Part shown: in pieces, positions 11,008 through 64,000 of the stretch | Position numbering within the stretch: position 1 is the stretch's first letter | Layout: the number at the start of each line of letters is the position of its first letter | Source of the DNA: Crossaster papposus | Lineage: Eukaryota > Echinodermata > Asteroidea > Velatida > Solasteridae | DNA: 64,000 nt | Assembly (NCBI GenBank): GCA_037893245.1 | Contig: JBAIAA010000877.1 | Location: 310,001-374,000, forward strand | Direction of reading: 5' to 3' | Notes under the pieces: generated by a model | The model's database searches: none | What the model saw: only the letters and a program-made list of their open reading frames with translations | What the model was told of the DNA's origin: nothing | Translations under genes and position numbers: made by a program

Positions 11008-11154
11008 CTACAAAACATTTGGGGAAAGAAAACAAAATTTAGCTACATGTATTCAATGGGAATAGTATGGTGGTTTCATTGGGACTAACAAATGATCAGC
11101 GCGGACGCCAAGCACAAGTTCTCCTCTCGCTTGGTTGCAGCAAGTGAGTTAGGG

Positions 11155-12182: not shown

Positions 12183-12303
12183 CTGTAAAAATGTATCCCT
12201 ACAGAGAAAATGATAGGTAACCAACTATTTAAGGTGTCATGTAATTAATGGCTGTTGACCGGTTCCCAGCCATTTTCCACTCGATAATAATAGCAAGTAC
12301 TTA

Positions 12304-12541
12304 GTGAAATATTCCAAATACCATCTCAGCTCCCGGGGGAGCATACAGCTCGATGCTGCCATTTCGGCGCAAAGAAGCTATTCCAATGACCATCTCTGCC
12401 CTCACAGGTACCCATTTACGCCTGGGTGGGGAGAAGCAGAGGCACACGCACAACCCCAGGTTGGACTCGAACCCACAACCTGCAGAATTACCAGCAGACC
12501 ACAAATGAAATGCTCCCGGCCACGATGCCACTCCACAGCCC
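12304..12541 (-). repeat. tRNA-derived SINE (copy 1)
   Basis: Same insertion as 724-961, with B box GGGTTCGAGTCC near 12470 on the minus strand. Confidence 0.7.
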
Positions 12542-12589
12542 TAAATAAGTGGTCTTCTACAATTGAAAACTTTGATATGAGAGTTTTTT

Positions 12590-14041: not shown

Positions 14042-14192
14042 TTTTTCAGATGAATAACATTTTTGACTAACAAATAGTCACTTTTCTCACTTCCAGAAAC
14101 TTGTTTTAACCTCAAATTGATTCTGGACTTTTCAATGTTTCCTCTTTATAAAAAAAAAAGAAGATAATCCTATCCCCATTTTTCCTCAAAAG

Positions 14193-14718
14193 TACGGAGC
14201 TCTGGAAGTGCCATCCGACTTGTTTACATCCTGACATATTTTATCTCAGGATGACGACATAATAAAGGTAAAATGACGACATCCTTTGATATTTGTTCGC
14301 GTAATGGCGACATCCTAAGATAATATATCGCGGGATGACGACATCCTGAAAGTACGATGACGACATCCTGAGATAATATATCGCGTGATGACGACATGTT
14401 GAAAGTAGGATGACGACATCCTGATATAAGATATCGCGGGATGACAACATGTTGAAAGTAGGATGGCGACATCCTGAGATAATATATCTTGGGATGACGA
14501 TATGTTGAAAGTATGATGACGACATCTTGAGATAATATATCGCTGGATGACGACATGCTGAAAGTGGGATGACGACATCCTGAGATAATATCTCAGGATG
14601 TCGTCATTACGCGAACAAATATCAAAGGATGTCGTCATTTTGCCTCTATTCTGTCGTCATCCTGAGATAAAATATGTCAGGATGTAAACAAGTCGGATGG
14701 CACTTCCAGAGCTCCGTA
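14193..14718. mobile_element. Fold-back element E2 (copy 1), complete
   Basis: TACGGAGCTCTGG at 14193 and its inverse ending CCGTA at 14718 are flanked by CAAAAG at 14187-14192 and 14719-14724, a 6 bp target-site duplication. The interior is entirely palindromic satellite. The 152 bp between E1 and E2 is simple sequence with an A-run. Confidence 0.85.
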
Positions 14719-21272: not shown

Positions 21273-22007
21273 GTAAGCTCACTTTTATGTTGATTTGAAG
21301 GTATAGGGGGTATAGACGGAAGAAAACGGACCTCGGAAATGGAAAGAACGATGTCTAATTAGTCTAATAAAATCAAATTGTTAATTGAAGATGTGTCGCC
21401 CTAAGTCGCCGTGTAATCAAATACACAGAAAGGTGCTGCGGGGAGTCTCGTACTATGAGTCGTAGTAAATCTTGGGGCGATTTCTGGGTAGACTTTGCAT
21501 GTGATATGGTGGCTTGTTTAACATTCGATTGTCGATATGTTGGTAATCAAGTGTTTAATTTAAAGTTTAACTAACTAATTAAGTATAATTTTATAATTAG
21601 TGAATATATATATATATATTTAAATGTAGTTTTATTTTTATAAAAAACAATAGAATTTATCTTTTTTTTTTTTCAATTTTTTTTTCATTTTTTTTTTTGT
21701 TTTGTTTTGAATGATCAGACATCAAGATGTGGTGACACATCTCTGATGATCTGTGACCTTGCGACCCGCAGGGTAGGGGGAACCCCTGGCCAAATTTTTA
21801 ATTTGAATTAAAACTTTGGTACTAATATCCTAAATTGGTGGCACGGATTTGCGGCTAGGCCCGCAGGCTAGTTTTTTTAAACAAAACTTAGTAGTTCGGT
21901 TTGATTCATTTAAAACTTTTTGGCCTGGTTTGTTGTATGCAGTTTACCATATTTTGCAATACTTCATTGCAACTTGCATCTAATTTTTGACATCTTTTTC
22001 ATTTCAG

Positions 22008-25000
22008 ATGGGTGTCAGCATAGATGTGTGGCGTCAGCGTATTGGGCGATTCAAGATGCCGAGTTCAAAAGCATCAAGATTATCTGCTGGCATTGAAGTT
22101 GTATTTCCTGGTAGCAAAATATCTATCGGCATTGGAATGACAACATATTTGGCAATTATCTTGTCAGTAGCTTTGGCTGTTACTTTCGTACCACCAATAT
22201 TTGACCACTTCACAACATGTGGAGACGTTGAAAGCAATCCTGGTCCAGAAACACCGCTTTTACATGAGGATGTGCTGCAGAAATTGCAACAAGGCGAACC
22301 AGTGGCTGCTATTCCGGACGGCATACTCTTCAAACATGTGTTTCAACTGGACAACCTCCGCAAAGAGAATAGTTCACCTTGGAAAACGGTTATTATTTGG
22401 CTGAAGTGTCTCCTTCCAGATTTTCCATCAGTTGGAGATCATTGGCCAAGAAATATCCAGCACCAGTGGGAAAAAAACATTTTGGAAAAACGACGTAAGC
22501 ACTTGAAAGCGACATCCCACCCAGAGAGATTGAGCGAATGGGAGGAAACTCCTTATACCCTTCCTACCGTTAAAGGACCAAAGGCAAAAACATCAACAAA
22601 GGAGATACCCATGACAAAATATGAAGCAGATTTGTTGACGGAGTCAAATGAACAATTAACTAATGAATGTGATGAACTCAAGCAAGAGGTTGAAGAACTT
22701 AAATTACGTCCCTCTCCACACAAGCAAATAGTTGACAAGCGACGAGAACAAAGTCATAAAAAGACTATTGCCAAAGAACGATCGAAAGCAAAAACTTTGA
22801 GCAAGGCAAAAACAAAATCAGAGAAAAAAATTGAAACCGTGACAACATCCAAAAGAAAACTAAGTACCGACTTCACCAATTTGACCGCCAAACAAAAGAG
22901 ACTGGAGAACAATCAGGAAATAGAAAAGAATGCATATGTTTTTGGATTAGAAAACGAAAATGTCGAACTCGCACAAAAGGTTAAAACTTTGGAAGAAGAA
23001 CTCAAACAGTGTAAAGAGGTGAATTCTGTATTGCTTGACGCTGCTATAGATTGGCGCAAAAAATTAGCGGAAGTAGAAAAAGAAGAACTCACACTAATGA
23101 AAAAAGGTTCTTTTACAAGCAACACACGAAAGTGTGTTTATGAGTTGCTGGGGTCTCATGTGGCCCAGGAAAAAATACCACATGTCATGGAGTCCGTGTT
23201 GAATATGGCACGAAAGAAAGCGGACCATGTTCCAAGTGCATCCTCAGTAAGGAACATGAACAAAGAAATGCTAGTTGTGGCACAAAGTCAATTGGAAAGC
23301 TTGATCGACTCTGGCTCAATTTCACTTCAAAGCGATGAAACACCCAAGTTTGGAGAGTGCTACGAAGCCTTTGTAGCGAATGATGACAATGAGAACTCAT
23401 ACATTTTAGGGATGCGCCATATGGCAGACAAAAGCTCTCAAACTACATTTGACACACTACAAGAAATATTACACGACATTACAGACACATGTACAACAAT
23501 AAGTGACAAAGAAAATGTTGGGTACAAAATTATGACCAAAATAACATCAACCATGACTGACAGAGCCAAGACAGAGACGAAATTCCACAGTCTTCTTGCA
23601 ACATTTAAGGAAGAATGCATGCCACTTTACTATAACAATTGGGATAAAATATCTGAGGCTTCACAAACCCAGCTGTCTAAATTATACCAATTTTTTTGTG
23701 GACTTCATCTCATGGTGGGCATGGCAGACACGGTAAATGCAGCAATGAAAGAATGGGAAGAGTTACAGAACACAAACCAAGAAACATTCACTGAAATTCA
23801 AAATTTGGATACCGATCTGGTACAAAAAGGTACGGAATCAAATATAGTGCGTTGTGTACGCCTAGTTTGTAAAACACTAGCAAAAGGAGCTGATCCCAAA
23901 AGCGGAAAACAGAGAGAATGGCGCACTCATTGTAATTCTATAAATAAACCACAATATATACCGATGCTTCAGGTTTTTAAAGGAAACAGATTTAATATTA
24001 TTTTTCTGCTTGGTGGAAATGCCTTCTTTTTGTATGAGCACATACTGACATGTCTTGACCAGGTTGGAGAACCAAATAAACTTGTCCGTGTTTGCCTCAG
24101 TTTGGTCAAGGATAAATTAAACCGAGCCGGATGCAGAGCACTTGGTATACTTAGGAAATTCATCATGATGCCACTATGGAGATTAACAGAAACTAAAGGA
24201 CACATACTAGAAATGAACAAACATTATACTGATTTAGTGGCATTTCTTACCAAGTGCTCTGCAGAGGACTCGGAATTGATTTTTGAACTTATACGGGGAG
24301 AGGTGACACCGTTTAGCAACAGTCTGGTTGAGGAGGACGAGGTGACGGCAAGTTTAACAAAACCAGACGATAGCGATGTCCTTGTAGTTTCACTACTCAA
24401 AACAATACTTGTCTCACTTAAATTGTATGTTGAAAAAACAATTGCAGAACATATACAGGGAGGTAAATACTGGGATGTAGGTGAACATGTTTGGAAGGCG
24501 ACAGTCAGCGCACCCAGGCACAATAAAAACCCTGAGCGCGTATTTGGGTTGTTGGATTTTCTTGTTCACAATCGTCCTAATTCTTCTGCATTAGTTAATG
24601 AGGCTGTCCTTATGTATGTTTATAACCACACAAGTGACTATTTAAAACAGATGGACCAAGAAAAACTTGACAATCTTATCAAACATGTAAAAATTCGTAC
24701 TAAAGAAATGGTCAAAGTGTATAAAGAGAGGGAAGAGAAGATTCTTACAAAACATTTAGAATTAAAAAGAGAAAGGGCCATGCGTGATGAAAGAAGGAAA
24801 AATGTACAGTTAAAGAAAAAAACTAAATTAACTGACAACATTGTAGATGAAGGACTATGGCAGTCAGAGGAAGAGGTGGACATGAAACTTGCCCAACCAA
24901 ATGTAAATGAGGCAGACAAGAAGCGGGGCCTAGCATGGCAATTGCAATTCAGGCAGAATGTCTTGGGACAATACCACAAAGACAAAACTGTATTCACTTT

Positions 25001-25322
25001 GTCCAAAAAAGGTAAACAAAAAACATCAGATGAACTTAAGGAACAGCTTAAAATATTAATCAGAGCAGCATCTACAGTTAATACCTCAACCACAGTTTCT
25101 CGCTACGATCGAGAAAAAGAACACATTCCTCTTTTGGTCGGCAAACGTGTACTTCATAAATTTGAAAATGGTGATTATACTGGCACTGTAATTGCTCCTG
25201 TCCCTGGCTTCCCATCATGGTACAATATAAAGTATGATAACATGGATGATGATGACTTTATGTATTCATATCGTCTTGTTGATGATTACAAGGCAGGAAA
25301 CCTTCAACTTTTATTTGAGTGA
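22008..25322 (+). CDS. 2A-led DDE transposase-like protein, 1104 aa, superfamily unclear
   Basis: The first ATG (22008) follows a TTTTCATTTCAG acceptor directly, so I start here rather than at the upstream TTG. Residues 1-80 form a leader: MGVSIDVWRQRIGRF, a hydrophobic segment (about 44-65) and the 2A motif GDVESNPGP (72-80), where ribosomes skip between G79 and P80. The remaining 1024 residues would be released separately. Basic coiled coil spans about 205-365. The core carries SDET (D443), MTDRA (D518), CGLH (564-567) and PERVFG (E843), the D-D-[C/D](2)H-E layout of hAT/MULE/P-type RNase H transposases, with a long insertion before the glutamate. Residues 1044-1104 resemble a small Tudor-like module (GKRVLHKF, VPGFPSWYNIKYD). 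I recall uncharacterised marine-invertebrate proteins of this kind. The ORF is uninterrupted and has no counterpart in copy 2. Confidence 0.75.
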   Translation: MGVSIDVWRQRIGRFKMPSSKASRLSAGIEVVFPGSKISIGIGMTTYLAIILSVALAVTFVPPIFDHFTTCGDVESNPGPETPLLHEDVLQKLQQGEPVAAIPDGILFKHVFQLDNLRKENSSPWKTVIIWLKCLLPDFPSVGDHWPRNIQHQWEKNILEKRRKHLKATSHPERLSEWEETPYTLPTVKGPKAKTSTKEIPMTKYEADLLTESNEQLTNECDELKQEVEELKLRPSPHKQIVDKRREQSHKKTIAKERSKAKTLSKAKTKSEKKIETVTTSKRKLSTDFTNLTAKQKRLENNQEIEKNAYVFGLENENVELAQKVKTLEEELKQCKEVNSVLLDAAIDWRKKLAEVEKEELTLMKKGSFTSNTRKCVYELLGSHVAQEKIPHVMESVLNMARKKADHVPSASSVRNMNKEMLVVAQSQLESLIDSGSISLQSDETPKFGECYEAFVANDDNENSYILGMRHMADKSSQTTFDTLQEILHDITDTCTTISDKENVGYKIMTKITSTMTDRAKTETKFHSLLATFKEECMPLYYNNWDKISEASQTQLSKLYQFFCGLHLMVGMADTVNAAMKEWEELQNTNQETFTEIQNLDTDLVQKGTESNIVRCVRLVCKTLAKGADPKSGKQREWRTHCNSINKPQYIPMLQVFKGNRFNIIFLLGGNAFFLYEHILTCLDQVGEPNKLVRVCLSLVKDKLNRAGCRALGILRKFIMMPLWRLTETKGHILEMNKHYTDLVAFLTKCSAEDSELIFELIRGEVTPFSNSLVEEDEVTASLTKPDDSDVLVVSLLKTILVSLKLYVEKTIAEHIQGGKYWDVGEHVWKATVSAPRHNKNPERVFGLLDFLVHNRPNSSALVNEAVLMYVYNHTSDYLKQMDQEKLDNLIKHVKIRTKEMVKVYKEREEKILTKHLELKRERAMRDERRKNVQLKKKTKLTDNIVDEGLWQSEEEVDMKLAQPNVNEADKKRGLAWQLQFRQNVLGQYHKDKTVFTLSKKGKQKTSDELKEQLKILIRAASTVNTSTTVSRYDREKEHIPLLVGKRVLHKFENGDYTGTVIAPVPGFPSWYNIKYDNMDDDDFMYSYRLVDDYKAGNLQLLFE

Positions 25323-25852: not shown

Positions 25853-27858
25853 ACAGATAACTGATACCATGTTTTGTATAGATTCTACAAGTGTTTGAAG
25901 TTGTTTACTTATTTATGAATATATAATTAGGCACATTTGCTTGTAAACAAGGGTAACATTTGACCAAGTTTCTCCATTTGAAACTAATACGATTTGGCCC
26001 GAAGTTTCTTAAACTTGAAAAATACATATCTCCGCAACCCCTTGACCGATTTTTAAAAAAAAGGTGTCATATGAATCCTACAGCCCTAAGCTACAACATG
26101 GTAATTGAATTGAGCCAATTAAATACATTTGAAAAATTCATGTGCAGTTCTGAAATGCCGTCAATAGGGGACGGGGCATTGTCCGACCGTCTTTCCTCTT
26201 TTGTTTGTACTCTAACGTTTTCGGATGATCGCCATAGGATTTGCACACGAGTCTGAATCGGGGACCTTTGCGGATTAGGGGACCCCATTGTTCCCTTTGT
26301 CATACGTCCCCTATTTCAATCAAAAACAAACGCACGCACACCCATACCCACACATCGCCACGTTGTGTGTTGTGCGCACACACAGGCCGTCGTCCCTATA
26401 TAAGTTGAGTACACACTACACACCGTCCAAAACATGTTTCTTTGACCTATAGTACATACATCATACATACATTTATAAAAACGAACTTTCTCCATACTGA
26501 ACAGGCACCTTTTTACCTTTGACGTTGCCTTTTCAACTCCAAATAAAATAGTGAAAGAAAAAGTTCCTAACCGCAGTTTCATAATCATACACAGGCCAAG
26601 CTTAAGGGCGCCGCCATTACTAAAACTATTCGCGCCTCGACTTTTGAGGGCGCTACACATTATTTTTGTCAAAACATTCGCTTCAGACGCATCGCGTCCA
26701 AAAGCGACAAATCTATTATTGTATTTGTTTTTTCATTTTTTTTTTTCAAGACCCATTTTTACTGTGTTTGTTTTTGTACCAACTTATATCTCACCGAAAT
26801 TTCGCGACGAATTTCTCTCCACTGATGTTCACTCCGAACCGTTAAGGGTGTCTGACCCGAGTGCGCGGGATAGCCGGGCTAGGTAGCCCTTTCGCTGGAC
26901 TCTGTTGCTAGATGGACCTTGCTGTCGGCCAAACTCGGATTCGCAGTTTGCTTACTATTGACGAATATGTTTCAATCAGCGGGTAGACCCAGCCTTGCAT
27001 TTGACACCCCAAGCGACGAGGTGTGGTGGTCGACTTCAGATTACTCTTTAGTCGATGGGACCCTTCCACACAAATTGAAAGGTCCCAGTGATTCAGGTAC
27101 ATCACCCCCCTGCTACACCTGGCTGGGGCAGTAGAGGGAGCTTAACCCCTCACTGGTGCTAGGAATAACACTCCCCTCACCCAAGAAGTATAAATCCTCC
27201 TTATAAGCTAGAAGAGTTAAGTACTCAAATGGTGTTTAAAGCACACAAGAACATTTACATTCATTTCAAAAATAACCTAGCGAATGATTAGGCCATATAA
27301 AAAACAAAACTAGTTTCTAGTCCAGATGATTTTTGGTTATAGGGTCGTATCATATAATGATAATTAGACTCCACTAACTCTACAAAAAAAAATAAGAATT
27401 AGGATTGGTAGAAAAGTGCCGATGTGAATATGACTCAGATTGTTGTCACTTTTAATTTATTTAAAAACTTTTGTTGTAGCAAAAAATTGATCCACACGAG
27501 GATAAGAAACAATATATTCATTATTTGGCCTTATAAAAAGCTTACATGGATTAAAAATGTTACTGGTTCCCCCTTGTTTATTTCATCTGGTTTGTCGTCT
27601 AGAAGAAAACAGAAAAACCAATGTAGGTAATGTTAACGATCATTCAAATGACTGATCGTTGACAATTACTTACATTGTTGTTTTTTCTTATTATTTACAG
27701 TTATGATATTGGGTTTTCCTATAATCACGGCTTTAGCAACTGCTGCATTTTTTGAGAGACACCTTGTAGTTAGAGAAGTTATCAGTAAAGATACCAAACA
27801 TTTTTGTTTTTAAGAGCCAAAGATTGCAAACTGCATGAACTCCTGGCTGGAAGACGTC
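25853..27858. other. Gene-free stretch including the right limit of the copy-1-only block
   Basis: Copy 2 sequence resumes at 26405 (GTTGAGTACACAC). The 2A-gene block therefore spans about 19252-26404, with no clear target duplication. A second copy-1-only insertion of about 490 bp lies at about 26840-27330, where copy 2 joins CCGAACC to GATTTTTGG. I do not recognise it. The empty target of the 48117-52800 element is AAAGTTCCTAACCGCAG near 26560. Confidence 0.5.
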
Positions 27859-36128: not shown

Positions 36129-36968
36129 ATGAAGATCTTGGTGGCAACCGTTCTTTCAATCGCCCTCTTTCTGGGTAACTCTGTCAAGCTCCGAGCTTCC
36201 GTCACTGGGCCGGTTGCCACGGACGGTGATGTTCCAGCGTCTCGGGCGTGTCCGATGTGCTGCCAGGGACCTACTGCCGCACATGGTATACCAGGTTTAA
36301 ATGGGCAGATCGGACCGATGGGACCCTACGGCCAGCCGGGGTCAAAGGGCGACGCAGGTCAGCCGGGTCAAATTGGCGATATCGGGCCAATCGGTCCAAT
36401 GGGTGAGCGGGGAGCACTTGGGAACGCTGGGCCTAAAGGTGACGATGGGATAGGCCAGCCCGGCAAGATAGGTCCGAAAGGTCTGCAGGGTGTCGTTGGA
36501 AGTCCTGGTCAGACTGGTGTCAAAGGTCAGAAGGGTGAGCCAGGGGAGACACCAGACGACTCCAACCAGCGGGTAGCATTCACCGCGGTGAGGACGAGCG
36601 CCTCTGATACCTCTACGAGTCACGACACCCGTTTGCCCTTCCAGCAGACCGAGACGCTTCTGCCGGGTACCAGCTTCGATCTCGGGACCGGCACGTTCAC
36701 GTGTACTGTGCCGGGCACCTACGTGTTTACGTTTTCTGTGAACAAAGATTCTTCCAGCCTCAGCCTGAACGTTCATCTCCGGAAGAACGACGAATATGTT
36801 GTCACTGGCTTTAGCTATGATTCAAGTCACAGTGAGCAGGTGTCTGGGAGCGCGGTGCTGGTTCTGCAGCGAGGAGACACGGTGGGGCTTACCATGAACG
36901 GTAGGGTGTATAGTGAATCCACCTATCACTACACCTCATTCAGTGGCTTCCTCCTTTACCCCGAATAA
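36129..36968 (+). CDS. Secreted collagen/C1q-domain protein, 279 aa (copy 1)
   Basis: The coding exon follows acceptor TTTTATACAG, and ATG at 36129 is its second base. Residues 1-24 are a signal peptide (MKILVATVLSIALFLGNSVK). CPMCC at 41-45 offers cysteines for interchain disulfides. Residues 53-140 are Gly-X-Y collagen repeats with one break at GDDGIGQPG, like the kink in C1q and mannan-binding lectin stems. Residues 148-279 form the C1q head (AFTAVRT, FTCTVPGTYVFTFSV, SGSAVLVLQRGDTV, FSGFLLYPE). Such proteins are secreted trimeric recognition molecules in invertebrate immunity, a family-based inference. AATAAA overlaps the stop codon (36964) and recurs at 36971. Against copy 2 it differs at 19 residues, 18 of them in 147-268. 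Confidence 0.93.
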   Translation: MKILVATVLSIALFLGNSVKLRASVTGPVATDGDVPASRACPMCCQGPTAAHGIPGLNGQIGPMGPYGQPGSKGDAGQPGQIGDIGPIGPMGERGALGNAGPKGDDGIGQPGKIGPKGLQGVVGSPGQTGVKGQKGEPGETPDDSNQRVAFTAVRTSASDTSTSHDTRLPFQQTETLLPGTSFDLGTGTFTCTVPGTYVFTFSVNKDSSSLSLNVHLRKNDEYVVTGFSYDSSHSEQVSGSAVLVLQRGDTVGLTMNGRVYSESTYHYTSFSGFLLYPE

Positions 36969-40976: not shown

Positions 40977-42601
40977 TACGGAGCTCTGGAAGTGCCATCC
41001 GACTTGTTTACATCCTGACATATTTTATCTCAGGATGACGACATAATAGGGGCAAAATGACGACATCCTTTAATATTTGTTCGCGTAATAGCGACATCCT
41101 GAGATAATATATCGCGAGATGACGACATGCTGAAAGTAGGATGACGACATCCCGAGATAACATATCGCGGGATGACGACATGCTAAAAGTAGGATGACGA
41201 CATCCCGAGATAATATATCGCGGGATGACGACATCCTGAGATAATATATCGCGGGATGACGACATGTTGAAAATAGGATGACGACATCCTGAGATAATAT
41301 ATCGCGGTATGACGACATGTTGAAAGTAGGATGACGACATCCTGAGATAATATATCGCGGGATGACGACATCCTGAAAGTAGGATGACGACATCCTGAGA
41401 TAATATATCGCGGGATGACGACATGCTGAGAGTAGGATGACGACATCCTGAGATAATATATCCCGGGATGACAACATGCTGCTGAAACCATGTAGGATCC
41501 TGATTAGATCAGCAATACGAAAGCTTAAAGGGACCATCTGCGTTTCCGCGTTTCAGAATGAAAAACCATGTAAAGACGGACACTTGGTGCAATGCTCGCA
41601 GTCAGCATACGATAGGCCGGGTAGCAGCGCGGCGAGTCTCTGCCTCGATTTTTGTCATACCCCTTGCGAGGTTTTATGTTAATGAGGTTTCCCTTTGAGG
41701 GGCGGAGTGGTTTGACAACAAATTTCAAAAATTATTTTGTCCCATTTATCACAGAAAATAAACACAACCACACACATAATGTTGTTGTAAACATTATACT
41801 TTATTGATTTAAGCAAACAAAATCCGTATTACATGTTTCCTTTAATCAATCCGTATGGTAGGCTTTGTCTATTTCCGTGACGCTTTTGCTTTGGCCTTGA
41901 CGCTTTGACTTTGGTCGTGACAGTTGTGGACCACCGTAGTATTTCGTTAAAAGACGTCTTCTTGAGAGATATGATTTAATATCGTGGAAAGACGTCTTTT
42001 CAAGATACGATTATCATGGAAAGGCGTCTTTCTGAGATACGATATTAGGAAAGATATATTTTTATATCAGTATTCCGTCTTTTTGAGATAAATTATCTCA
42101 GAAACGCGGAAACGCGGATGGTCACTTTAAGCTTCCGTATTGCTGATCTAATCAGGATCCTACATAGTTTCAGCAGCATGTCGTCATCCCAGGATATATT
42201 ATCCCAGGATGTTGTCATCCTACTTTCAACATGTCGTCATCCCGCGATATATTATCCCAGGATGTTGTCATCCTACTTTTAGCATGTCGTCATCCCGGGA
42301 TATATTATCCCAGGATGTCGTCATCCTACTTTCAACATGTCGTCATCCTGCGATATATTATCTCAGGATGTCGTCATGCTATTTTCAACATGTCGTCATC
42401 CTATTTTCAACATGTCGTCATCCCGCGATATATTATCTCAGGATGTCGTCATCCTACTTTCAGCATGTCGTCATCATGCGATATATTATCTCAGGATGTC
42501 GCCATTACGCGAACAAATATCAAAGGATATCAGGATGTCGTCCTGAGATAAAATATGTCAAGATGTAAACAAGTCGGATGGCACTTCCATATTTTTCCGT
42601 A
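40977..42601. mobile_element. Fold-back element E1 (copy 2)
   Basis: TACGGAGCTC at 40977 to CCGTA at 42601. The satellite arms differ from copy 1 in unit number (41008-41480 and 42170-42570), and the AAAGACGTCTTT array is shorter. Confidence 0.8.
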
Positions 42602-42754
42602 TTTTTCAGATGAATAACATTTTTGACTAACAAATAGTCACTTTTCTCACTTCCAGAAACTTGTTTTAACCTCAAATTGATTCTGGACTTTTCAATGTTT
42701 CCTCTTTATTAAAAAAAAAAAGAAGATAATCCTATCCCCATTTTTCCTCAAAAG

Positions 42755-43417
42755 TACGGAGCTCTGGAAGTGCCGTCCGACTTGTTTACATCCTGACATA
42801 TTTTATCTCAGGATGACGACATAATAAAGGTAAAATGACGACATCCTTTGATATTTGTTCGCGTAATGGCGACATCCTAAGATAATATATCGCGGGATGA
42901 CGACATCCTGAAAGTACGATGACGACATCCTGAGATAATATATCGCGTGATGACGACATGTTGAAAGTAGGATGACGACATCCTGATATAAGATATCGCG
43001 GGATGACGACATGTTGAAAGTAGGATGGCGACATCCTGAGATAATATATCTTGGGATGACGATATGTTGAAAGTATGATGACGACATCCTGAGATAATAT
43101 CTCAGGATGTCGTCATTACGCGAACAAATATCAAAGGATGTCGTCATTTTGCCCTTATTATGTCGTCATCCCGCGATATCTTATATCAAGATGTTGTCAT
43201 CCTACTTTCAAGATGTCGTCATCACGCGATATATTTTCTCAGGATGTCGTCATCGTACTTTCAGGATGTCGTCATCCCGCGATATATTATCTCAGGATGT
43301 CGCCATTACGCGAACAAATATCCAAGGATGTCGTCATTTTGCCTCTATTATGTCGTCATCCTGAGATAAAATATGTCAGGATGTAAACAAGTCGGATGGC
43401 ACTTCCAGAGCTCCGTA
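42755..43417. mobile_element. Fold-back element E2 (copy 2)
   Basis: The ends TACGGAGCTC and GAGCTCCGTA are flanked by CAAAAG on both sides, as in copy 1, but the interior is 137 bp longer, so the satellite has expanded or contracted since duplication. Confidence 0.8.
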
Positions 43418-45696: not shown

Positions 45697-47515
45697 ATAG
45701 TCCAGGGAAAATAAGTTTTGACCTCACACAAATTGCAATAGAATATTTTTCACCACAGTGCACTTCTATAAGGTCCCTAGAATGACATACTAAAAATCGA
45801 CAAAAATCCAAGTGGTGGAAATATGTCTAATTTGCATAAATCGCTAATCCCTGCCGTGTAATATATTTATTCCCATATTTGGGTATATATTTTATTTTTA
45901 TTTTTTGAAAAGTTTATTTTGGTGATTCTACTTACATATCCTTACTTGAATAACATTTGCTAAAGCATGTAAGTGACTGAATAATTATGAGAACATAGTA
46001 ATTATCCAAAATGACAACTTCGTGACCCTATAAATGTGCGCACATTACACTGTCTCCAGATATCATCATGTAGTCAGTATTGGTGAGCTTCAAATTCACC
46101 AAGTTGCTTACTGGCACAGTTAACATATTAAAACCTTATGAAAAATCATATGAACAATAATAACATTGTGATATTTAGCCCAGAAAACAAAAAATGGGGG
46201 AAAATGGTGCGTCTATAAATTGGGCTAAAAAGTAGTTAAAGGGTTGTCTAACATGGAATACTTGAACAAGTTCAAGGAAATTACCAAAACATTTTAACGT
46301 AGATATGATTATTGTAAGCAACAAAAATCTTAAATTTGGGGGGTTCCCTTGAACTTGTTCAAGTCTCTCACCTTAGTCAACCCTTCACCTACTTGTTAGT
46401 CTAATTTAGGGACACATCATTTTTTCCAAGTTTTTGTTTGCTGGGCTATTAAATATCACAATGTTATAATTGTCCATATGATTTTACATAAGTTTTTAAT
46501 ATGATAACTGTGCCAGTAAGCAACTTGGTGAATTTGAAGCTCACCAATACTGACTACATGATGATATCTGGATACAGTGTAATGTGCGCACATTTATAGG
46601 GTCACAAAGTTGTCATTTTGGATAATTACTATGTTCTTAGACCGAGTTACTGGCCTCTAGTTATCGCTTTTTTAACATTTGGGCATTATCTTGCGCTACT
46701 AGAGGCCGAGCCAGAAGATATTTGAAATCCTATAAATTCTAGAAAGTGGTTCAAAATGTCGCCATAATCCACACAAATACGTAACAAAATACCTCTTAAT
46801 CGTCTAAATAACCTTCCATATGTGTCCAAGCTGAGTTAACGAACTTCTAAGGTATTCACGATCAATTCTTGACCTGCAAATCAAGGAAATTCGACGCCAG
46901 TTTTCCAGCGCGTACTGAACTTTTGCATGGCCGCCATTTTTATGATTGCCTGTGACGTCACTGCCAAAGTGCATGCCGACCGTACCACTATACGCGGGGG
47001 TGCTCTCCAATGTCACAGGTCGGAGTATCGCGTTGCAGGGGCGATACAATGACCTGTGACATCGCAGAGCACCCCGCGTATATAGTGGTACGGTCGGCAC
47101 GCACTTTGGCACTTTGGCAGAATACCCACAATGCTCGTTTTGCTCATCATAAAAATGGCGGCCATGCAAAAGTTCAGTACGCGCTGGAAAACTGGCGTCG
47201 AATTTCCTTGATTTGCAGGTCAAGAATTGATCGTGAATACCTTAGAAGTTCGTTAACTCAGCTTGGACACATATGGAAGGTTATTTAGACGATTAAGAGG
47301 TATTTTGTTACGTATTTGTGTGGATTATGGCGACATTTTGAACCACTTTCTAGAGCTTATAGGATTTCAAATATCTTCTGGCTCGGCCTCTAGTAGCGCA
47401 AGATAATGCCCAAATGTTAAAAAAGCGATAACTAGAGGCCAGTAACTCGGTCTACTATGTTCTCATGATTATTCAGTCACTTTGCTTTAGCAAATGTTAT
47501 TCAAGTAAGTACATT
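45697..47515. mobile_element. Large fold-back MITE (copy 2), with a nested element
   Basis: The left arm begins ATAGTCCAGGG at 45697. A longer centre than in copy 1 contains a second inverted pair (46020-46135 against 46496-46605). The right arm is cut off near 47515 and is interrupted by the element at 46638-47454. Confidence 0.6.
46638..47454. mobile_element. Mutator-type fold-back element with 9 bp target duplication
   Basis: TAGACCGAGTTACTGGCCTC at 46638 and its inverse at 47454 begin near-perfect arms of about 310 bp. The centre (about 46946-47146) is a second, shorter inverted repeat. CTATGTTCT flanks the element on both sides (46629-46637 and 47455-47463), and the empty site is in copy 1 near 17578. 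A 9 bp duplication with long terminal inverted repeats is typical of Mutator-like transposition. The 139- and 92-codon ORFs across the arms mirror each other and are artefacts. Confidence 0.8.
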
Positions 47516-48116
47516 TTGTGGCCGTTTTGAGGGTGTAATCTGATGTTTTGGGCAAACATTGTCATTAGTCCGAGTAACTTGGACCCCAAAAATCACCTTT
47601 TTCAACATGTGGACATGTCGGGTGATATCCAAGCAAGAGCCCTTTGGATCGCTGTACGGAATGTCTGCACATCAATCCCCCATGACCTCCCACACTTATC
47701 CCCCAAAATGTCACGGAAAACGGCCACTTACAAAAATGCTGCTTGTCCCCAGTAGGCACTAAGGTTCGAGGAAGACACTAACACAGTATCAGTGTGTTCT
47801 TACCTTTCAAAAAAGTGAGAAAATCAGGCCTCAAAATGTGGAGCAATGTTCGCCGATTCAAATGCACATAATTATACTAGTTATAGCCATTGTTGAGCAA
47901 AGTCAACGGCTGTTACCTGTTTCGTGCACTGTGCTGTAGTGGATGGCGTTGAGTACACACTACACACCGTCCAAAACATGTTTCTTTGACCTATACATAC
48001 ATCAAAGATACACGTCTTTTATAAAAACGAACTTTCTCCATACTGAACAGGCACCTTTTTACCTTTGACGTTGCCTTTTCAACTCCAAATGAAATAGTGA
48101 AAGAAAAAGTTCCTAA
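47516..48116. other. Gene-free spacer left of the nuclease/transposase element
   Basis: It matches 18806-19250 of copy 1, then from about 47955 matches 26405-26570, so the 2A-gene block is missing here. The 5 bp CCTAA at 48112-48116 is the left target copy of the next element. Confidence 0.55.
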
Positions 48117-48584
48117 GGGTGCATACCACTAAATCTCTGGAAATCACTGCGCGCGAGCTCATTAATATTTTGTGATCCCTCCGGTAATTTTGAATAAGAG
48201 GTCCCTGGGGCCTATACATTGGACTGATTGTAGAAATATCTGTGGAAATCAAGAATTGGTGACCTGTGACTTCCAACTCGGAGGATTGCGTTCACAAAAA
48301 AGACCAATACGTGGGTCTATTTTGCATAGAGGCGGGGGGCTACATTTAGACCTGGGCCCAGAGCTGGGCCACCATTTTAGGGGTGGTTTGTGGAAAGGGG
48401 AGTATAAAAAAAAATTCATTCGGTCAACCCCCCTAAATTTGAAAAGAAAATTATTCTAGGAGTCTTAATCTTTAATTTCCAGCCAAAAAAATATTGCCAC
48501 CCTACTCCTGAGCGTCACGAGGCGGCGCTCTTTCTTTCTATTTTTGCGTTGGTTACAATGAACCCCGTATTTAGTGAGTGGAAC
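48117..48584 (+). repeat. Left direct terminal repeat (468 bp)
   Basis: It starts GGGTGCATACCACTAAATC and ends TTAGTGAGTGGAAC. It contains a possible TATA box (AGTATAAAA near 48401). A 95-codon ORF occurs identically in both repeats but shows no recognisable domain. Confidence 0.85.
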
Positions 48585-49093
48585 CTTTATAGAGCCAAGA
48601 TGGCGCCGCCCGTATGCCGCCCAAGTGTACGGTATACTCGACAAAAATGGTATTTTTGAACTATGAAATCTCACAGAAAACACAGTAATGATTACACACA
48701 GGAGAAAGAACAAAATGGGTTTTTTCTTTCTTTATTTTTTTTCATTGCTGTCTTTTTATTTACATAAATAATAATATACATTTTAGATGCCTATCCGCCA
48801 TGTAATTATCAACATGTTTACAATAGGTTGTGCTGAAGCTCGTAAATTTACACGTGCTTTTTTGTTACTGAAAATCAAAGACTTTTGTTGGACAAGTAAG
48901 TAGTTTGTCTGCATTGTCAGTTTCATCCAATATTTAGACAGATGTATTTTTCTTTATTTGTATTTGTAGCATGCCCAAGCTAGGGCTATCATGACTGCTG
49001 GAGAAAACTTTTGACCAATGGTAGCAAAGGTAAGTTGACCTCACGCACGCGGTCTGTATTGTTTGTTATGCAGATTTCTTAAACCATAGCAAA

Positions 49094-49462
49094 ATGGATT
49101 CAATCTGGAAGGCTTCAATTCAAGGCAAGATTTTAAGAAAAACTGTGCACAGAGGCAGAAAAAAATGCAAAATATGGACAGGATATGTCCAGCAGAAATA
49201 TGGCATCATTAATGTTGTCATGCCTGGCTCAAAATCGAATTCACGCACAAGGATGCGTGTGCACAGGTTGACGTACATTGTTTATTCTGGAGTCCTTGAT
49301 CTTCCCCGGGGGTATGATGTAAGTCACCTGTGCCACAACTCCTTGTGCGTGAATTTTGATCACCTGTCACTTGAGCCACACGCCATCAACACTGCAAGAT
49401 CTCGTTGTAAGAGATGCCGTTGGTGTATCGGCCATGGCTCGTACAAGGATTGTCTTCTTTAA
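49094..49462 (+). CDS. His-Me finger (I-PpoI-like) homing-type endonuclease, 122 aa
   Basis: The C-terminal half reads DVSHLCHNSLCVNFDHLSLE, then PHAINTARSRCKRC and GHGSYKDCLL, the zinc-loop His-Me nuclease pattern (Pfam zf-His_Me_endon). By spacing with I-PpoI, His78 matches the general base His98, Asn99 the metal-binding Asn119, and Cys80, Cys85, His90 with Cys25 the first zinc site. Cys105, Cys111, His114 and Cys120 can form the second. All key residues are present in a single short exon. In I-PpoI this fold cuts DNA at a long target site. Here the gene lies inside a DNA transposon, facing the transposase gene 94 bp away, which suggests a joint role in mobility. That role is inference. No other copy is in the window. 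Confidence 0.85.
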   Translation: MDSIWKASIQGKILRKTVHRGRKKCKIWTGYVQQKYGIINVVMPGSKSNSRTRMRVHRLTYIVYSGVLDLPRGYDVSHLCHNSLCVNFDHLSLEPHAINTARSRCKRCRWCIGHGSYKDCLL

Positions 49463-49556
49463 AATGTAAATATAAGGAGAATTTTTTGCTCACCAATAAG
49501 TTTGATAACTGAAATTGCTGACAATTTTTTCATGATACACTTGTTGCTTTTATAAT

Positions 49557-51488
49557 TCATTTTGGACTGAAACGTATGCTGTAATTGTGCTCACTCTGAA
49601 TTCTTTGCCAATTCACGTCTGGAGGGATTGCTGACTTGGGTTCCAGTTGCCCTTTCTTGTACAATGACTTGGAACAGTTGTACAAGTTATATCGTTGTGC
49701 CCTACACTTTGCCCTTCGTATTTTATAATGTGTGCTCCTAGCCCGTTGGGAATGATATTTTTCTTTTCTGTCCATTTGAGCCAGACTTTTGGCAGCTGGA
49801 GATCCTGGCAAAACAGGACAACCTGCAGCTTCGCACTTGAGGATGATTGAGTTGGCATGGCCATTGTTCACAAGGTGAATTGAGCTGTGGTCTCTTGAGA
49901 GAGCATTTCTGGAAAAGGTTAGTGTCCCTTTTGGATTAGTACTAGAAAAAGCATGGTTCATGGACTCTGCTTTTTGTGTACTTGTCCCATTTCTAGTTTT
50001 TTGCATTGCCTCGTGACCAATTCTCTTCTGAATTTTCAGTAAAAGTAGTTCCTTGTCAGATTCGAGCATTTTCAGTTTTCCCCTAACATGAACAGGAAGA
50101 TAGGGAAATCTGTAATTGCCATTGCAAACCAAGGACTGCTTTTTGCAAAGGTTGTGGCGACCTTGGTAACATTCGGGAATGGTTGAGGCAGCCTTTTCAG
50201 CCATGTCATACATTTGGGCAAAGTTTCTTTCACATTTCTTGAGGATTGCCCCTGCTTCTGCTTGTACCCTGTGACTTACATCGTCACCTAACCGATCTTG
50301 TATCTTTTTCTTTTCTTTTTTAGTTCTACCAGGCATCATGTCAACACTGAATTTGGCCTGACTGATGGCTGAACTGAGTGATCGATTTAAGTGAGGTGGG
50401 TCAAGAAAGTGTTCTGGCTCGATACCTGCTTTAATTCTCATCTGAGACATAAAACCTTCTGCCATACACCCGTCCGCATCGCTTGTTACTCTGTCTGCCA
50501 ACAAGGGTTCCTTACACTCTAGAAGTTTCTTGGCACATTGAATTCCCCCTTCTCTTTCATCTCCCATGTTGTAATTTGCTGGGCGTGTAGCACTACAAGA
50601 ATCTGTGTGCTCGGAACACTTGTTACTGCTGTGTTTGCCTTGATTTGCACATTTACAGAGTTTATTCTCGTGGTGGTACATTACTACCATTTTTTTGGTG
50701 GTTACATTCTCACATACTACGTCCCTAGTTTGGGTTGCCGGCACAAATGGTGTTTTTTTCCGACAGTTTCTCAAGGGGTTGTTATATTGTCTATCTAATT
50801 CGACCGCAATCGGTTTTTCTCTATCATAGCCCTGTAATTCTTGAATACCTTTGACCAATTTTCTCTTTTCAGCCATACTTCTAACATTTTCATTGATAAT
50901 AATGTCCCCACATTTGCTTGCTATTTTCTGCAGCCCACTGATTGAAGGAACAGTTGTACCCAGTGCTGTCAAAAGTCGTCTTGCTCCTGTGGCTGCAATA
51001 CCCGTGTTGAGTAGACCAACTTGGAAGGCCATGTTTGGAGTTGCAGTGCGTCGGCCTCTGCTGACCTGAGGTATCTCTGAGTACAGCTTCTTCCTTCCTG
51101 TTGAGAAGTGGCACTTGTTGCACGACAGCACCTCTGAAACAGCAAGGCCCCGGTGTGTTTCTTGCTCTGCCTGTAGCTGAGGCCAGCCATCACAGTCAGG
51201 ATTCGCATGCTGATGGTCCAGGGTAGCTCGAACACTCGTCTCAACTGTAGTGTTGACATGAACAATTCTGTAGCCGCCTGGGTTCAAGTTGTCCGCTCCT
51301 TCCCTCTGGAGTCTGCTTATCGGCGTAATTTCCTCAATTTTCGGTCGCAGCACCATCACAGTTTTATTAGTTCTGGCACATGGTGGGTTGTAGAAAGAAC
51401 CTCGCTCATCTCTGGGAAAGGCCAGTTGCAATTGTTCATTTGTGGGCCTGATATAGGAAGATGAAACATCAACCTTTTTTCTTATCAA
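49557..51488 (-). CDS. Mutator-like DDE transposase, 643-codon exon
   Basis: The minus-strand frame is open from 51488 to TGA at 49557. The track start codon is TTG and is preceded by CATGTCAG, a usable splice acceptor, so an upstream exon probably supplies the ATG. The sequence has a CNKC zinc pair (123-126), the family block AFQVGLLNTGIAATGARRLL (154-173), and a catalytic set Asp232 (VELDRQYN), Asp337 (VTSDADG), DPPH (363-366, the D(2)H motif) and Glu508 (KAESMNHAF). This is the layout of the animal Mutator-like transposase domain. The C-terminal 90 residues are very basic. It ends 94 bp from the convergent nuclease ORF. The exon shows no stop or frame change and may be active. Confidence 0.8.
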   Translation of the reverse strand: MIRKKVDVSSSYIRPTNEQLQLAFPRDERGSFYNPPCARTNKTVMVLRPKIEEITPISRLQREGADNLNPGGYRIVHVNTTVETSVRATLDHQHANPDCDGWPQLQAEQETHRGLAVSEVLSCNKCHFSTGRKKLYSEIPQVSRGRRTATPNMAFQVGLLNTGIAATGARRLLTALGTTVPSISGLQKIASKCGDIIINENVRSMAEKRKLVKGIQELQGYDREKPIAVELDRQYNNPLRNCRKKTPFVPATQTRDVVCENVTTKKMVVMYHHENKLCKCANQGKHSSNKCSEHTDSCSATRPANYNMGDEREGGIQCAKKLLECKEPLLADRVTSDADGCMAEGFMSQMRIKAGIEPEHFLDPPHLNRSLSSAISQAKFSVDMMPGRTKKEKKKIQDRLGDDVSHRVQAEAGAILKKCERNFAQMYDMAEKAASTIPECYQGRHNLCKKQSLVCNGNYRFPYLPVHVRGKLKMLESDKELLLLKIQKRIGHEAMQKTRNGTSTQKAESMNHAFSSTNPKGTLTFSRNALSRDHSSIHLVNNGHANSIILKCEAAGCPVLPGSPAAKSLAQMDRKEKYHSQRARSTHYKIRRAKCRAQRYNLYNCSKSLYKKGQLEPKSAIPPDVNWQRIQSEHNYSIRFSPK

Positions 51489-52332
51489 CTGACATGTCAG
51501 ACCATTGCCTTTTTAAAAAAAGGTTTTTCCTCTCTTAAACATGCCCTTTCTGTAGCGAACCATGGTGGACCTTTCAGTTGGTGAGTATTTATGGTTCTGA
51601 AGAGTTTTGTTTATTTATGTCACTATGAACATCTAACAAAAGAATAATGGTGCACTAACAATGAACATCCATTGTTACGCACGCCGAGCGTGCCGCGTAC
51701 GTGGTCACACTATTTATTAGACTTGCAAAGCTATTGCATTTTATTCAGTGCATGCTTAAGTTACTGCTTCCCTGTTGTGCTAATAACCAAAGGCAATTTC
51801 TAAATATGAACTAGTTGGTGAAATGAAAATTATTAAATTCATAAAGCAAGTCAAAACGAATTCGATTTGTGACATTTCTCTTTTCTTCATAGTTTTGGCT
51901 TTAATATCTTGCCTAATAGTTTGAACAAATTTCTGAAATTCCCCAACCCACCAATCTGACCATACTCCACCCCCCCCCCCCCCCCCCCCCATCTGAAGAC
52001 AATTTGTTTTTAGAAAAACATTGTATGAAATAAAGAGGGCTAATGAATTTAGTGTTACTAGTGCTTGGTTTGTTTTAGTTTATCTTCAGTGTGTCGTGCA
52101 TTTTTGTGAAGGAAGAGCTTGATCCCCTTTTGACTTGACTTTGCATTGACAATACATGCACCTTTGAATAACGTGGCAAAAATCTGAGTTTGCGGACTAA
52201 ACGATAGCGCCCCATTTTAGAACCGCAAGTCTATCGCATTTCATTTTTTGAAGCGGTAACTGTATTTTAGGTAAATTTTTACTGTTTTGAGTCCCATTTT
52301 TCTCACCAAAGGCCCCAGTTAGTGCTATTAAA
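51489..52332. other. Element interior right of the transposase exon
   Basis: It should hold the promoter and first exon(s) of the minus-strand transposase gene, but I cannot place them. A 21-base C-run lies at 51970-51990. Confidence 0.4.
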
Positions 52333-52800
52333 GGGTGCATACCACTAAATCTCTGGAAATCACTGCGCGCGAGCTCATTAATATTTTGTGATCCCTCCGG
52401 TAATTTTGAATAAGAGGTCCCTGGGGCCTATACATTGGACTGATTGTAGAAATATCTGTGGAAATCAAGAATTGGTGACCTGTGACTTCCAACTCGGAGG
52501 ATTGCGTTCACAAAAAAGACCAATACGTGGGTCTATTTTGCATAGAGGCGGGGGGCTACATTTAGACCTGGGCCCAGAGCTGGGCCACCATTTTAGGGGT
52601 GGTTTGTGGAAAGGGGAGTATAAAAAAAAATTCATTCGGTCAACCCCCCTAAATTTGAAAAGAAAATTATTCTAGGAGTCTTAATCTTTAATTTCCAGCC
52701 AAAAAAATATTGCCACCCTACTCCTGAGCGTCACGAGGCGGCGCTCTTTCTTTCTATTTTTGCGTTGGTTACAATGAACCCCGTATTTAGTGAGTGGAAC
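52333..52800 (+). repeat. Right direct terminal repeat (468 bp)
   Basis: Reads the same as 48117-48584 at an offset of 4216, and I found no difference by eye. Confidence 0.85.
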
Positions 52801-52805
52801 CCTAA

Positions 52806-56638: not shown

Positions 56639-57744
56639 AATAATAATAATAATAATATATACATTTATATAGCGCTAATTTTGTAAACACATTCAAAAGC
56701 GCTGCACAAAAACAAGGTAAGCATACGAAACAAGAAAATCAGACAGGATATGCCTGTCTGAACAAATGAGCTTTGAGTTTCCCTTTAAAGACATCTACAG
56801 AGAAACATTCCACCAAAGTCAGCTCAGCCGGGAGGCGATTCCACAGCCATGGGCCCTTATACACGAATGCCCTCTCACCAAGAGTCTTGTGATGAATACG
56901 AGGGACATGTAGAACAATACGAGTCTGTGAACGAAGATTGTAAACACTAGATCTCACAGTAATCATATCTATCAAATAATTAGGGGCAAGACCCTTTAAA
57001 CACTTAAACACCTGAAGTATGAGCTTGAACTCGATTCTTTCTTTCACTGGCAGCCAGTGAAGAGACCTGAGAGTGTCACTGATATGGCAGAATTTGGGCA
57101 GACAGAAAATGAGACGGGCTGCACCGTTCATAATTCTCTGGACCCTGGCCAACTGGTAGTCAGGCAGACCAACCAAGAGAGAGTTACAATAATCGATATG
57201 GCTAATTACAAATGCATTAATGAGGGTCTTAGTGGTGTCAACATCTAAATATTTCCGAATTTGGCGGATGTTGTAGAGGCCATAATAGGCTTTCGAACAA
57301 AGTTTACCAATATGAATGTCCATGGACATGTTACAATCCAAATACACCCCTAAATTCCTAGCATTGACACATGGCTCAATGTCTACATTGCCAACTCTAA
57401 TGGCTTGAACCCTAGCTTTTGTAAGTTGTTGACGAGTGCCTATGATGAGGAATTCGGTTTTGGAATCATTTATCATTAGGTTATACCTAATCATCCATGA
57501 TCTGATGTCCAAGATGAGTGACTGCATGGCACTGACGGCTCGCTCCTCTGACGAGGAAGAACCAGCAGTGAAAGATAGATAGAGCTGAGTATCGTCGGCA
57601 TAGCTGTGGGCAATAGGTGAATGCTTAGAGACGATGGTAAACAGATGTGATATGTAGCAAGTGAACAATATAGGCCCCAAGCAACTACCCTGAGGAACAC
57701 CACATTCCAAGGGCCGATCTTCAGATGAGGTGGCATCAATTCGC
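56639..57744 (-). mobile_element. 5'-truncated CR1/L2-like LINE (copy 2 only)
   Basis: Inserted after GTTGAGTTTT, with the empty site in copy 1 at 30840. The 3' end on the minus strand is GCGCTATATAAATG followed by an ATT-repeat tail, usual for CR1/L2-group LINEs. The 5' end is cut within the reverse transcriptase, as expected from incomplete target-primed reverse transcription. Confidence 0.85.
56739..57744 (-). pseudogene. LINE reverse transcriptase fragment, about 335 codons
   Basis: Reads GVPQGSCLGPILFTCYISHL, then SYADDTQLYLSF (YADD catalytic box), thumb and connection regions, and the C-terminal WNRLPAEL and FKGKLKAHLFRQAY typical of CR1-group polymerases. The frame is open to its natural end at 56739, but endonuclease and the first part of the polymerase are absent, so it cannot be autonomous. 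The apparent start is a GTG created by truncation. Confidence 0.85.
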
Positions 57745-59289
57745 ACATGATATATGGGAAAATGTTAATTGTTTTCCCTATAAAAACTTTTTCAGTCCAC
57801 TATTTCCATACTATTTCTTAATCAAATGTAGTTATTAGACATAGCAAGGATTACAAATATCAATAAATCTGAAGAAAAATAAAACACCCATTATTTATTA
57901 TTTTGCAATTTTCTCCACTATGCCCTGTGCCCAGTTCTGCCTCGCACAATAAAGCACATTGAGTTGCAAGTCTGGTTGTTTTTGTTTTTCTTTGGGGAAC
58001 AAAACAATCCTCCAAACCACAAATTAATAAAAGAAAAAGTTTCCCATGACTTAAAAACTTTATTTTAAGAGAGACAAAGAAAGAAAAATATAATACTTTT
58101 TGTTAAAAAAAAAATTAAAAAAATCCCGAACTACGATGATTGTTGTAAAATCACTCCCCGGACGTAAAACTCTCCAAAATTAGCCCTATTATTAAGATTT
58201 CCAAGGCGCTAAACAAGATTGGGGGATGATACATTCTCATTGGCACTGGTAGAAAAGAGAATTATTATCTCATCGGAAGTGTGAGATCGCACGGTTATTG
58301 GAAATGGTGAGTGTCTTATGCAAATCAGGGATTAGTGTGCCGTGGTCCACGAAGGGTGCTGAGGAATATCCTTTAAGGTGCGTGTATGTTATTTAAATAC
58401 TAAGAATTGAAAGTGCTTAGTTTGAATTTATTATTTGATCTTGGAGCTTGTTCGCTTTTTCAAGCGCTCGATCGCCTTCGGGGGGTCAGACGGGAAATTT
58501 TTTGGGCATCTTTTTTCTGAACCCAAATCCCAGGTTTTGATCTCCGTTTTTTGCCTGTCTCAATTAAATATTGAGAAATTCCTAATTGTTTCCAACCCTA
58601 CAACATTTTCATGACATTTATTCAGGGATAGCAGCAAACGCTGTAAAAAGAAAAGATATTTGTTGGGATGATTGCCAATACCGCATCCGTTAACGATTCG
58701 AAGTGTTCATTGTAAAGATAGTCAATAGGGCTTACCCATGTTTATGTTAAATGTCCCGGTTTAGGAGTTAAAGAAGGAAATTTCCGAGTTTCTTTTACAG
58801 TTTATTTATTATGTTCACACTGATAGAGAAAAAATGCTCACAGTAATGTAAGGTTATAGTATCTTATCATGATGGTTTGTGGTGAATACGCTTCCAATCA
58901 AATCGGAAGTAAAAGTTTATATATTGAAGTGTACATCCCCACGTTATGCAGATTGTAATGTACAAATAACTGAATCGTTGCTAGTCAAAGAAAATATTTA
59001 AGTTTGTAAAAGCGAATTGAGTTGAATAAAATGTCAAAACATGTGATAATATTCAAACATTGTGTAGATCATACACATATAGACAAGCTGAAAGTATAAG
59101 AATTGTATTGTATATAGCTATTTTCCAAGTGGTGAATCCCAGCGTTTGTGACCGTAAACCAGCAAGAATAAAACATGTAAAAATGTAATATGTAAACATA
59201 TTTTGGTTGTTGCAAGTCTGTTGCAAGTACATGTACATGTATGGTTGGTTATCGTGGCTGAGATGAGATTGGTCAATATGTATAGGCTG
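57745..59289. other. Gene-free spacer (copy 2)
   Basis: Collinear with 30841-32385. Nothing coding is seen. Confidence 0.5.
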
Positions 59290-63162: not shown

Positions 63163-64000
63163 ATGAAGATCTTGGTGGCAACCGTTCTTTCAATCGCCCT
63201 CCTTCTGGGTAACTCTGTCAAGCTCCGAGCTTCCGTCACTGGGCCGGTTGCCACAGACGGTGATGTTCCAGCGTCTCGGGCGTGTCCGATGTGCTGCCAG
63301 GGACCTACTGCCGCACATGGTATACCAGGTTTAAATGGGCAGATCGGACCGATGGGACCCTACGGCCAGCCGGGGTCAAAGGGCGACGCAGGTCAGCCGG
63401 GTCAAATTGGCGATATCGGGCCAATCGGTCCAATGGGTGAGCGGGGAGCACTTGGGAACGCTGGGCCTAAAGGTGACGATGGGATAGGTCAGCCCGGCAA
63501 GATAGGTCCGAAAGGTCTGCAGGGTGTAGTCGGAAGTCCTGGTCAGACTGGTGTCAAAGGTCAGAAGGGTGAGCCAGGGGAGACACCAGACGACTCCAAC
63601 CTGCGGGTAGCATTCACCGCGGTGAGGACGAGCGACTCTGATACCTCTAGGAGTCACGACACCCGTTTGCCCTTCCAGCAGACCGAGACGCTTCTGCCGG
63701 GTACCAGCTTCGATCTCGGGACCGGCACGTTCACGTGTACTGTGCCGGGCACCTACGTGTTTACGTTTTCTGTGAACAAATATCCTTCCAGCAGCAGCCT
63801 GAACGTTCATCTCCGGAAGAACGACGACTATGTTGTCACTGGCCTTAGCACTGATCCAAGTTACTATGAGCAGGTGTCTGGGAGCGCGGTGCTGGTTCTG
63901 CAGCGAGGAGACACGGTGGGGCTTACCATGTACGGTAGGGCGCATAGTGCTTCCCCCTATCACCGCACCTCATTCAGTGGCTTCCTCCTTTACCCCGAAT
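63163..64000 (+). CDS. Secreted collagen/C1q-domain protein (copy 2), stop codon cut by window end
   Basis: ATG at 63163 follows acceptor TTTTATACAG. All 279 codons are present and the final T is the first base of the expected TAA. The layout matches copy 1: signal peptide, CPMCC, collagen stem with the same break, and C1q head. Differences from copy 1 are F14L plus Q147L, A158D, T163R, D207Y, S208P, L211S, E222D, F228L, Y230T, S232P, H234Y, S235Y, N257Y, V260A, Y261H, E263A, T265P and Y268R. Silent differences (four) all lie before codon 124. Both copies look functional. Confidence 0.92.
   Translation, partial: MKILVATVLSIALLLGNSVKLRASVTGPVATDGDVPASRACPMCCQGPTAAHGIPGLNGQIGPMGPYGQPGSKGDAGQPGQIGDIGPIGPMGERGALGNAGPKGDDGIGQPGKIGPKGLQGVVGSPGQTGVKGQKGEPGETPDDSNLRVAFTAVRTSDSDTSRSHDTRLPFQQTETLLPGTSFDLGTGTFTCTVPGTYVFTFSVNKYPSSSSLNVHLRKNDDYVVTGLSTDPSYYEQVSGSAVLVLQRGDTVGLTMYGRAHSASPYHRTSFSGFLLYPE

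Follow-up and report, generated by a model that had tools for sequence, protein, structure and literature searches.

A young DDD/E transposon with long terminal direct repeats, and its tandem arrays, in the genome of Crossaster papposus

Results and Discussion

Structure of the element

The window analysed here is a stretch of 64,000 nucleotides from contig JBAIAA010000877.1 of Crossaster papposus (C877 below, other contigs being named in the same way). It contains an element of 4,685 bp in which two long terminal direct repeats (LTDRs) enclose an internal region (INT) encoding a transposase and a nuclease. The features are as follows.

26404-26841, plus strand: empty site, the homologous segment without the element; single CTAA at about 26567-26570
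48113-48116, no strand: left target-site duplication, CTAA
48117-52801: whole element, termini GG...CC, ends fixed by other copies
48117-48585, plus strand: left LTDR, 469 bp, identical to the right LTDR
48117-48134, plus strand: 5' inverted tip of the left LTDR; partner at 48569-48585, imperfect
48586-52332, minus strand: INT, 3,747 bp
49094-49462, plus strand: His-Me (His-Cys box, I-PpoI-like) nuclease frame, 122 aa
49557-51563, minus strand: DDD/E transposase gene (PF20700), nonsense codon at 51513-51515
51971-51990 (limits approximate), plus strand: poly-C tract, of different length among copies
52333-52801, plus strand: right LTDR, 469 bp
52333-52350 and 52785-52801: inverted tips of the right LTDR, as in the left
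52802-52805, no strand: right target-site duplication, CTAA

Taken alone, the window locus leaves nine choices of ends, starting at 48115-48117 and ending at 52800-52802, and the duplication could then measure anything from 1 to 5 bp; the identical direct run is 471 bp long (48115-48585 and 52331-52801). An earlier note on this DNA had chosen repeats of 468 bp and a duplication of CCTAA. The repeats are indeed identical and direct, but other copies give them a different length. At all 30 LTDR loci read in the same genome, a C directly follows the 468-bp unit on its 3' side, adjoined by host DNA at 6 loci and by INT at 24; moreover, a solo LTDR on C364 shows its CTAG/CTAG duplication only when this terminal C is counted inside the LTDR. 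We therefore set the LTDR at 469 bp, ending in CC, the element at 48117-52801 and the duplication at CTAA. The 5-bp duplication is rejected, its first C being part of the LTDR in every other context read.

The ends had also been described as direct and not inverted, yet each LTDR carries imperfect inverted tips, with 13 matching bases in a 17/18-bp alignment. Random pairs did as well in 6 of 20,000 cases drawn from the LTDR and in 8 of 20,000 from the window; the 8-bp tip core alone, with gaps disallowed, is unremarkable (151/5000).

The empty site that the note had placed in a duplicate segment is borne out: when the insert is left out, the joined flanks align to 26404-26841 with one CTAA and no gap at the insertion point. 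Near the insertion the empty and occupied segments are 93.6% and 95.0% identical, whereas the two LTDRs do not differ at all, and the segmental duplication is probably far older than the insertion, unless conversion evened out the LTDRs.

Genes of the internal region

A Pfam scan of the eight open reading frames of at least 82 aa inside the element matched PF20700, PF05551 and PF13392 only; six of the eight, of 82-98 aa, matched no family. As the note had stated, no reverse transcriptase was seen among these eight frames, on which ground a retroelement or LTR retrotransposon is rejected; its reading of a DDE transposase likewise holds, the minus-strand frame matching PF20700 ("Mutator-like transposase") with an E value of 2.7e-45.

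A protein search with this transposase returned 21 relatives, the best 78% identical over the full query. When the window sequence was aligned with 16 of these 21 (17 sequences), D232, D337, D339, H366, E508, C278, C298, C440, C448 and C455 were invariant and D363 and H445 nearly so. A C/DxxH motif (D363-P-P-H366) lies between the second D and the E. Residues C440, H445, C448 and C455 fit zinc finger 1; in the CCHC finger, C278 and C298 are invariant and the two middle positions vary. In the predicted structure (mean pLDDT 71.5), strands at 227-236, 253-260, 268-275, 331-336 and 359-362 are arranged about D232 and D337 in the same order as in an RNase-H-like core.

The window transposase is interrupted by a nonsense codon near its N terminus and is open from 51512 down, its longest ATG-started frame being 599 aa. 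A 668-aa frame is open in all 10 units of C616, all 8 of C293 and 8 of the 12 of C887. Because of the nonsense codon, the window copy probably moved in trans. The same codon is found in the copy on C783. That two loci hold a broken copy points to movement in trans, provided that a downstream start (599 aa) does not suffice.

The plus-strand frame at 49094-49462 matches PF05551 (His-Me nuclease, E 3.8e-11) and PF13392. It is encoded downstream of the transposase gene, on the opposite strand. It has 37 relatives in a protein search, the best at 69% identity. A profile built from the window protein and 16 of these matches I-PpoI, a His-Cys box homing endonuclease from a group I intron, with an E value of 5.3e-06. 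Residues S77, H78, H90, E94 and N99 correspond, each numbered 20 lower, to I-PpoI S97, H98, H110, E114 and N119, the key residues named by Kojima and Bao (2022, Mob DNA 13:24, PMC9587614), so that their spacing is the same. The gene differs from that of I-PpoI in lying within a transposon, not an intron.

Copies in the genome

The genome (1.02 Gb, 1,841 contigs) was searched by LTDR sequence. The best 40 of 3225 first-look candidates were all 100% identical to the LTDR. The 30-base 5' tip occurs 178 times at up to two mismatches, and a reversed-pattern control gave 0. Among the matches listed, 49 tips are exact, on 13 contigs. Five are single (C19, C67, C364, C545 and C993), four contigs have a pair at monomer spacing (C143, C145, C783 and the window on C877), and four have arrays, with four tips on C237, nine on C293, eleven on C616 and twelve on C887.

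As assembled, the fetched stretches hold ten complete units on C616 and eight on C293, while C887 has twelve and a partial one at the contig end, hence at least 12; C783 has one complete unit. The LTDRs on C364 and C993 are identical to that of the window and have host DNA on both sides. At 456 bp on C67 and 458 bp on C545 the LTDR is shorter, and the one on C19 differs from the window at 50 of 469 positions.

The units on C237 are rearranged. Two complete ones were fetched and are identical, and the spacing of the four tips implies three. Each measures 4.9 kb and includes about 2 kb of other sequence; INT positions from about 356 to 1758 are missing, so that the nuclease gene (INT 509-877) is lost along with part of the transposase gene. 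Within the stretch 1347684-1362807 of C237, this 2-kb sequence has no similarity to the window. Short repeats in its outer parts are related and inverted in order, so that it may represent an element inserted in its own right.

The note had proposed asking whether full copies always have two direct repeats. They do in the window and on C616, C293, C887, C783 and C237, fetched wholly or in part, where INT lies between direct LTDRs; for C143 and C145 the same arrangement is inferred from tips and spacing. The case that the note had named as refuting, a transposase bounded by inverted repeats, did not turn up in this search by LTDR sequence, which copies without this LTDR would escape.

A second LTDR variant, with one tip base different, forms regular arrays at a spacing of about 2.9-3.0 kb on C486 (ten tips), C187, C250 and C760, and is probably a shorter, non-autonomous relative. 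On C158 (1528323-1586995), at least 12 two-mismatch LTDR tips stand at irregular, partly short spacings, unlike the regular arrays.

Target sites

Both flanks were read at 12 tip-exact insertions, and one flank only at C887. Exact 4-bp duplications flank nine of the 12: CTAA in the window, ATAG at C616, CTAT at C293, CTAG at C364, GTAG at C143, GTAC at C145, TGCA at C237, and ATAC at both C67 and C545, whose flanks are nearly the same. The constant duplication length raised in the note thus holds at these nine but not at C783 (GTAT/TTTA), C993 (ATCT/TTCT) or C19, where an exact duplication is absent. Solo repeats with a duplication of their own, which it had also raised, do exist, at C364. In three of the four multimers a single matching duplication brackets the whole array (C616, C293 and C237).

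Flanks were also read at ten places hand-picked from the listing with one or two mismatches. Duplications were present at three (C130 CTAT, C779 TGGA and C1408 ATAG) and absent at C185 and at two places on C79; the C79 places share flanks, and the left flank of C185 is the same as that of C130. C96 has an INT end on its left, C42 is without a right tip, and at C216 and C499 the left flank ends in TAAA with no match shown.

With C67 and C545 counted once, 9 of 11 duplications have a central TA, whereas the frequency of TA over the window is 7.3% (binomial about 3e-9, from a small sample that only sites with a duplication enter). Most read NTAN, and none of the 11 is TTAA.

Formation of the arrays

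We aligned INT from 32 copies: one from the window, ten from C616, eight from C293, twelve from C887 and one from C783. Substitutions are few, and the differences lie mostly in the length of the poly-C tract and in small indels, which may partly be assembly noise. At window position 49289 all ten C616 units carry a variant, whereas 21 of the 22 other copies have the window base; the remaining one, a C887 unit, is deleted there, and the two C237 units are without the region. The variant alters nuclease residue 66 and leaves the frame open. Because this variant is shared and one duplication brackets the array, the simplest reading is that the C616 10-mer is one insertion multiplied in place, and this is what the data suggest.

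By homology, the DDD/E transposase would recognise the short inverted LTDR tips and insert LTDR-INT-LTDR, leaving a 4-bp duplication of the kind observed here as CTAA. Recombination between the direct LTDRs could then yield solo LTDRs or tandem multimers, (LTDR-INT)n-LTDR, in which the original duplication is retained, since both ends are the same direct repeat; both products are present in the genome, and LTDR recombination is the route we infer for them. In the published model (PMC9587614), the His-Me nuclease may promote such recombination by cutting the LTDRs or a circular form. Amplification in place is compatible with each of three routes: unequal LTDR exchange, repair of a break made by the nuclease, and recapture of LTDR-INT circles.

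We tentatively propose two stages, a proposal that we regard as possible though doubtful: a single transposition with a 4-bp, mostly NTAN, duplication, followed by amplification in place to at least ten units, driven in trans by the I-PpoI-like nuclease. The action in trans is suggested by the array on C237, which was amplified too although its fetched units are without a nuclease gene, so that there the nuclease either acts in trans or is unneeded. If true, a transposon would here be building satellite-like arrays through homing-type breaks.

Monomers and multimers may instead come mainly from LTDR-INT circles captured by solo LTDRs, rather than from unequal exchange or nuclease-induced repair in situ; we give this, too, limited credence. 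The note had suggested recombination of a circle with a solo repeat, and it remains one live model among the routes above, found also in PMC9587614. Solo LTDRs are present as targets, and in the published model capture would likewise keep the outer duplication (PMC9587614). The array-specific variant in all ten C616 units, however, would need circles derived from that very array or several copying rounds within it.

A miscount of units by the assembly, which would make the long arrays (at least eight units) in part artefactual, is unlikely. The units are almost identical over 4.2 kb, and C887 runs off the contig end with units differing mainly by small indels, as such an artefact might; but the arrays on C616 and C293 end in host DNA at either side, each with its matching duplication, and multimers have been reported independently in molluscs and a clam (PMC9587614). 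Long arrays of near-identical units within one duplication make good material for asking whether, as the published model would have it, a homing-type nuclease multiplies a DNA transposon in place.

Relation to known elements

The element is real, young and of a described kind. The note had allowed for an uncharacterised mode of transposition, but the same anatomy was described in 2022, from animals, for the KolobokP lineage in PMC9587614, the sole paper found in a literature search on KolobokP and long terminal direct repeats. According to the text of that paper, KolobokP elements are built as LTDR-INT-LTDR, with LTDRs of about 450 or 660 bp bearing short inverted tips, termini 5'-RR and YY-3', and target duplications of 3-5 bp. 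They encode a DDD/E transposase with C/DxxH and, downstream on the opposite strand, an I-PpoI-like His-Me nuclease; the transposase has two zinc fingers, of which the CCHC one after the first D is almost invariant. Their genomes carry solo LTDRs and (LTDR-INT)n-LTDR multimers. No strong target preference is reported for KolobokP there, TTAA being the target of the superfamily.

The window element agrees in its 469-bp LTDRs with inverted tips, its GG...CC ends, its 4-bp duplication, its two genes on opposite strands and its solo and multimer forms. It is very probably a monomer of a young family in the KolobokP lineage of the Kolobok superfamily, a placement judged by anatomy, gene pair and motifs. 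It departs from the account in PMC9587614 in its TA-centred duplications, in arrays of 10 or at least 12 units (none so long appears in the text consulted), and perhaps in the second zinc finger, where two of the four residues vary among our 17 transposases. The tip-exact insertions at C783, C993 and C19, with no exact duplication, also speak against the placement. Beyond the text consulted go the array lengths, which depend on the assembly, the central-TA bias, from 11 sites, and an array with two fetched units that have no nuclease gene. The locus and its empty site place this unusual design, described only in 2022, as a recent arrival in the Crossaster papposus genome too.

Other Kolobok lineages share the DDD/E core with C/DxxH, the RR..YY ends (PMC9587614) and a 4-bp duplication, but theirs is TTAA where ours is mostly NTAN, and the text of that paper does not describe long direct repeats or a His-Me nuclease for them. 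Bacterial composite transposons and LTR retrotransposons also have long repeats at both ends and can form solo repeats; here, in contrast, the transposase lies in INT and not in the end repeats, and the eight frames include no reverse transcriptase.

Mutator/MuDR elements make duplications of 8-11 bp. Membership in that group, with which the note had compared the element, is rejected, the duplication being 4 bp; the label is Pfam's, and PMC9587614 places such elements in Kolobok, which removes the conflict. The Pfam name would also favour a rival reading, in which some other DDE lineage, whether or not related to Kolobok, came by this design independently of KolobokP. We consider this very improbable, for LTDR length, GG..CC ends, gene pair and strands, and solo and multimer forms all agree with KolobokP as described in that paper. 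A chance composite, in which a 469-bp non-autonomous element inserted twice, separately, on either side of a host segment with a transposase gene, has next to no probability left: solo LTDRs with their own duplication (C364) suggest that LTDRs may move alone, but the whole unit has one duplication and one empty site, and the recurring LTDR-INT-LTDR unit, with the same INT in the window and on C616, C293, C887 and C783 and a rearranged one on C237, refutes it.

Surroundings in the window

Just left of the transposon, nested inverted repeats occupy 45936-47514, with arms of 309 nt (99% complementary) and 188 nt (96%) and matching outer ends of 30-32 nt, and look like a foldback element. To the right, outside the element, a reverse transcriptase fragment lies at 56745-57764 on the minus strand (PF00078, E 3.1e-12). 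An open frame of 1,111 aa at 21984-25319 (plus strand) has GDVESNPGP in its N-terminal part, which resembles a 2A peptide, and a Pfam Spin/Ssty match near its end (E 2.4e-08), with no reverse transcriptase match. The large tandem duplication of the window includes two copies of a collagen-C1q gene (PF01391, PF00386) at 36132-36965 and 63166-63999 on the plus strand, and both of its halves contain arrays of a 53-bp repeat with unit variants (8375-14591 and 41092-43306).
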